Shown: positions 21,956 to 51,667 of the stretch, one piece after another
Numbering within the stretch: position 1 is the stretch's first letter
Layout of the letters: every line of letters starts with the position of its first letter
Assembly: GCA_009773805.1 (NCBI GenBank)
Contig: WTXA01000002.1
Location: 558,001-622,000, forward strand
Length of the DNA: 64,000 bases
Direction: 5' to 3'
From: Fusobacteriota bacterium
GTDB taxonomy: Bacteria > Bacillota > TC1
Notes under the pieces: model-generated
What the model saw: the letters and a program-made list of their open reading frames with translations, nothing else
Told to the model about the DNA's origin: nothing
The model's database searches: none
Program-made: the position numbers and the translations under genes

Positions 21956-22224
21956 GGCTGTACTAGATGGGGAACTAGCGGTTCCTTGTAACTCCAAATC
22001 CGCTATAGGGAGATCGAATACCTGCTTTGAGGGACTCGCAAAGAGAGATTTTGTCTAAAGAAGTGGTGTTGATACTTGAGCTTTTTGAAGCTGTAGCCCA
22101 TGAATCCTGTCAGGACCGGAAGGTAGCAGCAGTAAGTGGTGTCTGTGGTCTGTCGAGGATTACTTAAGGGGAGCTAACCTTTATGCATATTTCTAGTTGT
22201 TGGTTTCGAGGGTGGGGTACAGTC
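21956..22224 (+). ncRNA. ffs: Signal recognition particle RNA (large Gram-positive type)
   Basis: The conserved apical domain reads CCTGTCAGGACCGGAAGGT followed by AGCAGCAG, the Ffh-binding hairpin with its GGAA loop. The ends pair (GGCTGTAC at the 5' side, GTACAGTC at the 3' side), giving about 269 nt with an Alu domain, as in Bacillus and Clostridia. It guides secretory proteins to the membrane with Ffh and FtsY. A T-rich run follows. The usual downstream dnaX-recR block is not here. End points are approximate to a few bases. Confidence 0.93.
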
Positions 22225-50174: not shown

Positions 50175-50249
<75 letters not shown>

Positions 50250-50256
50250 AATATAT

Positions 50257-50298
50257 TTGAGGCTTAGAGAATTTTCTCTGAGCCTCAACTTTTATTTT
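50257..50298 (+). terminator. Terminator after tRNA-fMet
   Basis: TTGAGGCTTAGAGA and TCTCTGAGCCTCAA form a 14-bp stem with a single wobble, followed by CTTTTATTTT. It confirms a monocistronic tRNA gene. Confidence 0.85.
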
Positions 50299-50370: not shown

Positions 50371-50404
50371 AATGATTGACTGAATCATTAGTATTTGATA
50401 ATAT
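50371..50404 (+). promoter_or_regulatory. Promoter with overlapping palindrome upstream of the antiporter
   Basis: TTGACT (50376-50381), a 17-base spacer and TAATAT (50399-50404) with TGn before it. The -35 box lies inside the palindrome AATGATT-GACTG-AATCATT (50371-50389). AATGATT-like arms recur at 50333-50345 and 50413-50437, suggesting a regulator-binding array. Confidence 0.55.
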
Positions 50405-50445
50405 TAAATTCTAATCATGCTTAAATAATTAATGATTTGAACTTT

Positions 50446-50491
50446 AGAGCCTGGCAAATAGGGATAGGATATCCCAGTACCAGACTCTTTT
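50446..50491 (+). promoter_or_regulatory. Terminator-like hairpin in the antiporter leader (possible attenuator)
   Basis: AGAGCCTGG (50446-50454) pairs with CCAGACTCT (50480-50488), with an inner stem GGGATA / TATCCC and a T run (50486-50491). It lies about 35 bases after the predicted start of transcription and 33 bases before the antiporter ATG. I do not recognise a known riboswitch class in it. Confidence 0.5.
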
Positions 50492-50524
50492 AATATATAA
50501 AAATAAAAAAAGGTGGTATAAAGA

Positions 50525-51667
50525 ATGGAACTTATCCTGCAACTGGCAATTATTATTATTGCCTCAAAACTAGCCGGAGAGATAAGCAGAAAATTAGGTC
50601 AACCTCCCGTTTTAGGTAAACTAATAATTGGCATCATATTAGGATCATCATTTCTTGGAATAGTTGATGGCAATGAACTACTTACAGAATTTAGTCTAAT
50701 CGGAGTTATTCTTTTGATGTTCATGGCTGGATTAGAAACAGATGTTGATGATTTCAAGAAGGCCTTTAAATCCTCAGCTTTTGTTGGTTTTGGTGGTATT
50801 ATAGTACCTCTTGTAACAGGTTATGCTGCAGGTAAGGTTATGAATATGAGTGATATTCACGCAATATTCCTAGGAATGCTACTTTCAGCAACAAGTGTTA
50901 GTATTTCCGTTCAAGTTTTAAAGGAAATGAAACAATTGAACAGTAAAAAAGGTGCTACAATACTTGGGGCTGCAGTTATTGATGATGTTGTTATCATTGT
51001 GGCCTTAGCTTTTCTAATGAGTTTTATAGGAGATAATGTTAATATTACTAGAGTTATTATAGAGAAGTTTGTTTTTTTCTTTATAGCTATTGCTGTAGCC
51101 TGGAAAGTTGTTCCTTGGTTTATTCATAAGTTTACAAAATTGCAGGTAACAGAAACTATCATATCATCAGCGCTTATCATATGTTTTACTTTCGCATATT
51201 TTGCTGAGTTTACTGGAGTTTCAGCAATTATTGGGTCATATATAGCTGGTATTGCAATAAGTTTGACCCACTTTAAGGATAAGGTAATTGAGAAGATTAA
51301 TCCGATTGGTTATTCTATCTTCATACCTGTATTTTTAACTAATATTGGTATTACTGCAGATTTTTCAGGAATTGGTGAGAATATTGTATTAGTTATTGTA
51401 TTTAGTATTATTGCAATTTTAACCAAGATAATTGGAGCTTCAATTGGTGCCTTATTATCTGGTTTCAGATGGATAAGTGCCTTAGGTATTGGGGCAGCTA
51501 TGATTTCTCGTGGTGAGGTTGCTCTTATTATGGCTAAGATTGGTTTGGATTCAAGCATTTTAAGTAAGGATATGTTCGCAGTTTTGATAGTAGTGGTTCT
51601 AATAACCACCATAATTACACCTGTATTGATGAAGTATCTGTTCACCTTAGATAAGAAACATGCCTGA
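50525..51667 (+). CDS. Cation:proton antiporter, CPA2 family (Kef/NapA-like)
   Basis: 380-residue membrane transporter with about 12-13 helices. Family landmarks: KLAGEISRKLGQPPVLGKLI, LLMFMAGLETDVDDFKKAF, AVIDDVVIIVALAF (the tandem Asp of the ion-binding site, near residue 155) and ISRGEVALIMAKIGLDS. It has no C-terminal RCK/TrkA domain. Na+ or K+ against H+ exchange at the cytoplasmic membrane is expected. AAGGTGG precedes ATG 50525. The structured leader suggests regulated expression. A strong terminator follows. Confidence 0.92.
   Translation: MELILQLAIIIIASKLAGEISRKLGQPPVLGKLIIGIILGSSFLGIVDGNELLTEFSLIGVILLMFMAGLETDVDDFKKAFKSSAFVGFGGIIVPLVTGYAAGKVMNMSDIHAIFLGMLLSATSVSISVQVLKEMKQLNSKKGATILGAAVIDDVVIIVALAFLMSFIGDNVNITRVIIEKFVFFFIAIAVAWKVVPWFIHKFTKLQVTETIISSALIICFTFAYFAEFTGVSAIIGSYIAGIAISLTHFKDKVIEKINPIGYSIFIPVFLTNIGITADFSGIGENIVLVIVFSIIAILTKIIGASIGALLSGFRWISALGIGAAMISRGEVALIMAKIGLDSSILSKDMFAVLIVVVLITTIITPVLMKYLFTLDKKHA

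Follow-up and report, generated by a model that had tools for sequence, protein, structure and literature searches.

The leader described here lies in a 64,000-nucleotide stretch of contig WTXA01000002.1 (hereafter the window, whose numbering is used throughout), ahead of a gene for a CPA2 antiporter. Upstream are a tRNA-Met gene (50175–50246) and, between it and the leader, a strong terminator identified by a terminator scan (50257–50288). The AT-rich stretch that follows this terminator contains a promoter-like site on the + strand, TTGACT-17-TAATAT with a TG before the second hexamer (50376–50404). The original prediction called this a good promoter; the site is present and a hairpin lies about 35 nt downstream of the start expected from it, although it is a 9/12 match and promoter-like sites in the 6-kb region are not above chance in number (34, versus 27.1 ± 5.3 in shuffles). 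The ribosome-binding site, AGGTGG (50511–50516, +), is outside the hairpin. In another part of the window, at 21958–22222, a large bacterial SRP RNA (RF01854) adjoins a tRNA.

The antiporter gene (50525–51667, +; ATG at 50525) encodes a 380-aa protein that matches Pfam Na_H_Exchanger (1.8e-73) and falls slightly under the cut-off of the NCBIfam CPA2 model TIGR00932 (232.4 versus 238.3). Its closest solved relatives in the PDB copy searched are NapA chains (9.8e-46 to 8.6e-45), the match to KefC in the same search being 9.6e-15, and its IDD motif aligns with the IDD of NapA. Because the NapA matches exceed that to KefC and the IDD motifs align, this NapA-like protein is more likely to exchange Na+ for H+ than to exchange K+; the earlier proposal was that the gene moves Na+ or K+.

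The hairpin is 43 nt long (50446–50488) and has a minimum free energy (MFE) of -15.4 kcal/mol (z -2.71), a value equalled by three of 200 shuffles; over the full leader, folding does not exceed that of shuffles (z -0.74). In the computed fold an outer stem is formed by a 5' arm, GAGCCTGG (50447–50454, +), which agrees with GAGYCTG, a conserved part of the Bacilli motif described below, and a 3' arm, CCAGACTC (50480–50487, +), with one C-A mismatch. The inner stem pairs GGGATA with TATCCC around a 3-base loop (50461–50475, +). A short U run follows, UUUU (50488–50491, +) and then AAUAUAUA, and the run, UUUUAAUAUAUA, is only four U long. Thus the predicted hairpin ahead of the antiporter ATG is real, but the U run in which it was said to end is short, and among the features of an intrinsic terminator the stem is present whereas the U run is weak and the terminator scan does not list 50446–50488.

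No Rfam family matches the window leader at E values up to 10, which agrees with the earlier placement of the leader outside the nhaA, ydaO, yybP and ykkC classes. The c-di-AMP (ydaO), Mn2+ (yybP-ykoY), guanidine (ykkC) and Li+ riboswitches can be set aside for want of any Rfam covariance match to this leader, the scanned library presumably including all of these families. The Na+-I riboswitch (DUF1646 motif, RF03071) is likewise rejected, with no match at gathering score in the window leader and nothing over the cut-off in 22 genomes including the window's. Five instances of the motif described below were also scanned (L003, L008, L009, L260 and L096), and no Rfam 15 family matches the motif in them.

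When the GTDB contig collection was searched at the protein level with the window antiporter, three loci were obtained, two with antiporters 73–74 per cent to the window protein (L001 and L002) and one from a Paenibacillaceae strain at 50 per cent (L003). The gene order at L002 is that of the window, with the end of a VanY-like gene, a tRNA, a terminator, the leader and the antiporter. Both sister leaders carry GGUGGAGUCUGCAUCAAGGG at the same place, within a hairpin whose 3' arm is GGACUC or CAGACUC and which is followed by a U-rich run longer than the UUUU of the window. Another sequence, ATGATTTG (50432–50439, +), is common to the window and the two sister leaders. Across these three same-genus leaders, the only ones of the window's genus in the genomes searched, 95.2 per cent of the outer stem is paired as compared with 23.8–52.4 per cent when the arms are slid; two positions change on one side and none changes on both. 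A competing structure had been proposed between AATCAT (50413–50418, +) and ATGATT; since both sister leaders are without AATCAT and keep only ATGATT, this pair is not conserved and we reject the proposal.

The related motif is most readily seen in a Paenibacillaceae-like family (f23), in which a protein search of 148 genomes found NapA at E 1e-90 or better in 87. We read 32 f23 NapA-type leaders (L008, L009 and L035–L064); GGAGGAGCCUGUCACCAAGGG or a close form is present in 22 and no motif is visible in the other 10. A search with the pattern GGAGGAGYCTGYNMMC (GGAGGAGYCUGYNMMC) gave hits in 103 of these genomes, at 135 places in all, whereas the reversed pattern gave 16. An Na+/H+ antiporter gene of the NapA, NhaD-like, Mrp or NhaP type follows at 102 of the 135 places ('NhaD-like' being a label coined in this analysis). 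We inspected 110 of the places as loci and placed the other 25 by coordinates; 24 of the latter are just upstream of NapA matches, and one is a second copy in L159. A U tract is found at 87 of the 110 inspected places, 77 of which lead to NapA, MrpA/E, NhaD-like or NhaP genes, counting 15 that have a universal stress protein (Usp) gene first and MrpA next. By gene, the 87 places comprise NapA (24), MrpA (18), NhaD-like (16), Usp then MrpA (15), ABC ATPase (3), MrpE (2), NhaP (2) and others (7). Among the 23 places without a U tract, one leads to NhaP and 22 match no reference gene and are mostly inside reading frames. The 33 places without an antiporter are therefore these 22, the three with an ABC ATPase, the second copy in L159 and seven at which the U tract is followed by some other gene or by none that is clear (L128, L130, L144, L145, L159, L214 and L216). 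Pfam assignments of one representative each support the gene labels (CitMHS/ArsB for NhaD-like, MNHE, Proton_antipo_M, Na_H_Exchanger, Usp and ABC_tran).

Several of the f23 loci have features of their own. In many genomes (L129–L138 and L241–L248) the motif is followed first by a gene for a universal stress protein and then by mrpA, and MrpA behind Usp was confirmed at all 15 Usp-first places; L130 has a Usp fragment with no MrpA within the locus. This gene order suggests that Usp may belong to Mrp operons. The motif and a terminator precede a small open reading frame at L144 and L145 (93 aa at L144, with no Pfam match), possibly a new member of the regulon. Two of the U-less places, L125 and L153, are motif-like by eye, and the sequence at L153 precedes a gene for a 177-aa membrane protein with no Pfam match. 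Alpha/beta-hydrolase-like genes, identified by eye, lie behind the motif at L128 and L159 and are an unexpected partner for a Na+ regulon.

The Bacilli motif occurs in two forms. Short forms read GGAGGAGCC-UGYCAMCA-GGGCUC-UUUUUGUCUUUUUU, while in long forms the same 5' strand is kept, a second hairpin is inserted and the 3' arm is tens of bases away. A fully complementary 3' arm is found nearby in 90 of 103 nonredundant instances (null 0.117); a second, far 3' partner was seen in 31 of the 103 against a null of 0.245, and we do not claim one as a general feature. In three loci (L047, L157 and L159) a short form and then a long form stand in tandem before one gene, at about 201–240 and 276–335. 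Exact TATAAT sequences peak 30–45 nt upstream of the motif (47, as compared with a mean of 13.4 and a maximum of 25 in 200 shuffles), and because of this concentration we place the motif early in the RNA. About 12 nt before the strand there is a second conserved element in Bacilli, AAnnGAAUA, with a peak position of -25 to -17; its log-likelihood in 121 nonredundant sequences is 122.8, versus 16–22 in three shuffles that preserve composition and not dinucleotides. The region before the terminator contains no conserved helix (alifold -0.06 kcal/mol, 105 sequences), and its median MFE is -3.7 as compared with -17.8 for the hairpin.

Pairing is kept in 92.1 per cent of the stem cells of long forms, versus 22–54 per cent when slid; the changes are mostly to G-U on the 3' side, and a two-sided change occurs in only one cell. 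A covariation search of homologous leaders, suggested with the original prediction, thus finds little covariation because changes in the 5' arm are rare, but it does find that pairing is kept, mainly through one-sided (wobble) changes. The classical test is a weak one here because the 5' arm hardly changes, an invariance that arises in part by selection, both the pattern and the sequence-only model described next selecting on the 5' arm. A near-fixed 5' arm opposite a 3' arm that varies and yet pairs would be the signature of an attenuator in which the 5' arm has a second job.

To follow the motif beyond f23 we used a sequence-only model (R1) of 42 short forms, built without gene information. 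At E 1e-4 or better R1 matches 88 of 398 genomes, in 31 of 145 genera, of the class that contains genome G030, and a scan of the phylum gave strong matches in another family, f51. The weaker matches of the phylum scan (E above about 1e-4) are, as we read them, mostly chance, and several of those that were opened sit in coding sequence. We examined 50 loci (47 from the class-wide search and three from the phylum scan), 46 of them outside f23 and in about 15 further families. At every one of the 50, a reference-antiporter homologue lies on the same strand within 2.5 kb, of the NhaD-like (23), NapA (22), NhaP (3) or MrpA (2) type. Since R1 carries no gene information, this association of motif and gene is independent of how the model was built. 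The antiporter is the first gene at most of the 50 loci; it starts 702–2317 bases away in L288, L289 and L301, and in L306 a NapA-like gene comes first and the gene with the best antiporter match follows it. Within f51, the motif precedes each of two neighbouring NhaD-like genes at L173, and at L170 it precedes a YitT-like gene (by eye) and an NhaD-like gene.

How the window leader relates to this motif is best judged through its sisters. R1 finds neither the window nor the sister leaders, with seven bases of the window matching it. A second model (R2), for which 12 long forms from Bacilli were used and none from the window's genus, scores 17.5 bits on the sister leader L006 (E 4.3e-4 within the leader) and 14.7 bits on the sister leader L002 (E 0.0015 within the leader), in each case exactly at the hairpin; over 54.8 kb the corresponding E values are 0.1 and 0.34. 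The window leader scores -0.5 bits, the best R2 score in the whole 64-kb window being 10.1. Local alignment with the conserved Bacilli 5' strand (GGNGGAGYCUG..AAGGG) gives 28 for both sisters, a value reached by none of 539 background blocks, and 22 for the window, a value reached by 14 of them. The pattern GAGYCTGN{2,6}AGGG, which was devised after these leaders had been inspected, has 12 matches in six genomes. Two of these are in the window's genome, one being the leader copy, GAGCCTGGCAAATAGGG (50447–50463, +), outside any long open frame, and the other inside one. Among the nine matches listed, seven are in open frames of at least 165 codons (one strand), and the remaining two are the window leader and the opposite strand of a sister leader's hairpin. 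No motif-pattern match lies near two adjacent, more distant CPA2 antiporters (34–36 per cent) in the window's genome (G000:C1:528620-531049). In the window, then, the diverged strand builds a hairpin in a short leader with a Na+/H+ antiporter gene next. Because the sisters score with the Bacilli model while the window copy does not, we recognise the window leader by way of its sisters as what appears, from these comparisons, to be a diverged copy of the motif.

The reading that we favour, and consider probable, is that the window leader belongs, in diverged form, to a family of transcription attenuators controlling Na+/H+ antiporter genes in Bacillota. By comparison of leaders, the near-invariant strand early in the leader (GGAGGAGCCUGUCACCAAGGG in Bacilli, GGUGGAGUCUGCAUCAAGGG in the sisters) is the 5' arm of a hairpin, usually with a U tract next and then the antiporter reading frame. 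By default this hairpin would terminate transcription. In high Na+ or alkaline medium something else would capture the 5' arm ahead of synthesis of its 3' partner, so that no terminator would form and the exporter would be made. Several observations count against this reading, namely the R2 score of the window, the few bases that it shares with R1, the sisters' R2 E values over 54.8 kb, the small number of leaders from the window's genus (three), the short U tract of the window, the near absence of compensatory covariation and the fact that the 5' arm is what the pattern and R1 select on. For the window alone, a simple hairpin or remnant that regulates nothing would also account for the short U tract, for the failure of both models to find the window copy and for the 14 of 539 background blocks that align equally well. 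We think this unlikely, as R2 finds both sister leaders at the same place, pairing in the outer stem reaches 95 per cent across the three leaders, as against 24 to 52 per cent with slid arms, and the window copy is the one of the two pattern matches in its genome that is outside a long open frame.

If the family is an attenuator, the sensor may be either the leader RNA or an RNA-binding protein that acts in trans, and we give these nearly equal weight because the exporter genes argue for Na+ as the signal and the missing conserved fold argues against an ordinary aptamer. An antitermination site, at which a rise in Na+ or pH would cause a protein to bind the 5' arm in its unpaired state, is a tentative but plausible proposal; it would explain a near-invariant linear sequence with no alternative fold, and the retention of the same strand whether the 3' partner is near, as in short forms, or far, as in long ones, although the binding protein is hypothetical. 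A new small Na+-sensing riboswitch, in which the strand and AAnnGAAUA fold non-canonically around Na+ and block the terminator, is a shade less plausible to us. Its genes are almost all Na+/H+ exporters, resembling the Na+-I gene set as given in PMC9337991, and the upstream element is conserved at a nearly fixed distance, but the absence of a conserved helix before the terminator weighs against it. The layout of an attenuator or ion-responsive riboswitch that was originally proposed is therefore borne out to the extent that leaders homologous to this one stand before genes for Na+/H+ antiporters in many Bacilli and match no Rfam family in the scans made, while for the riboswitch part a trans-acting factor is as likely. 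We regard as very improbable a DNA operator for a repressor just past the promoter, with the hairpin as its dyad. The short forms are indeed inverted repeats and the site is close to the promoter; however, drift of the 3' arm to G-U pairs would break a DNA dyad, long forms shift the 3' arm by tens of bases, and U tracts come after the hairpin. A near-fixed 5' arm, with 3' changes that keep G-U pairs, argues for action as RNA.

Four other ideas were considered and rejected. For a leader peptide behind GGAGG, none of the instances inspected by eye offers a suitably spaced start codon; a G-quadruplex is disfavoured by the presence of only three G runs (by eye); and pairing of the loop with GGAG in a pseudoknot did not work in several instances, again by eye. 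No small RNA with a full complement to the strand was found on either strand of the 148 genomes, since the places without an exporter mostly lack a U tract and lie largely in reading frames; an RNA with an imperfect complement may exist.

The motif shares features with several known RNAs. The Na+-I riboswitch is also found before napA/kefB-type antiporter genes, and its terminator expression platform overlaps the conserved RNA (PMC9337991). Its consensus, GGUUGGGC..GCUUUCAAGA with two stems, is unrelated in sequence. Li+-I, Li+-II and Na+-II (nhaA-I, nhaA-II and variants) are likewise associated with alkali cation transporter genes, and Na+-II with transcription termination (PMC9646797); Na+-II is defined by its authors as nhaA-I variants (PMC9337991, PMC9646797). 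These classes differ from the window leader in that none matches it by Rfam at E up to 10. We take the Rfam library to include all three families. The nqrA-II motif, too, is a candidate riboswitch before a Na+-pumping enzyme, but it has four stem-loops and occurs in Pasteurellaceae, and the sections seen of its report describe no terminator arm of the motif sequence (PMC11109978).

No occurrence of four 14–16 letter forms of the motif, and no description of it, was found in the openly accessible literature. A 2017 report is said to contain 224 candidate RNAs. Protein-dependent antitermination leaders (RAT/LicT, TRAP, HutP and PyrR) have a conserved RNA that overlaps or controls a terminator, as here; we know of none among them that has the GGAGGAGCCUGUCA strand. 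On the favoured reading, the motif defines a family of attenuators for Na+ export that seems not to have been described before.

To our knowledge, Na+ sensing and the induction of Mrp, NapA or NhaD in most Gram-positive bacteria are largely open questions. The only validated Na+-selective protein regulator, according to the authors of the Na+-I paper (PMC9337991), is NhaR of E. coli. We suggest, with somewhat less than even confidence, a Bacillota-wide regulon of about 16 families and the window's genus, in which one short leader element switches on all the main types of Na+/H+ exporter (NapA, NhaD-like, Mrp and NhaP) upon a rise in cytoplasmic Na+, through either a near-helix-free aptamer or an undiscovered Na+-responsive antiterminator protein. 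With a leader element common to all these exporters, a single reporter and a single in vitro transcription assay are enough to test the question of Na+ sensing, and there is a sequence tag for locating the whole Na+ regulon. It may be through this motif that the cells switch on their export of sodium.
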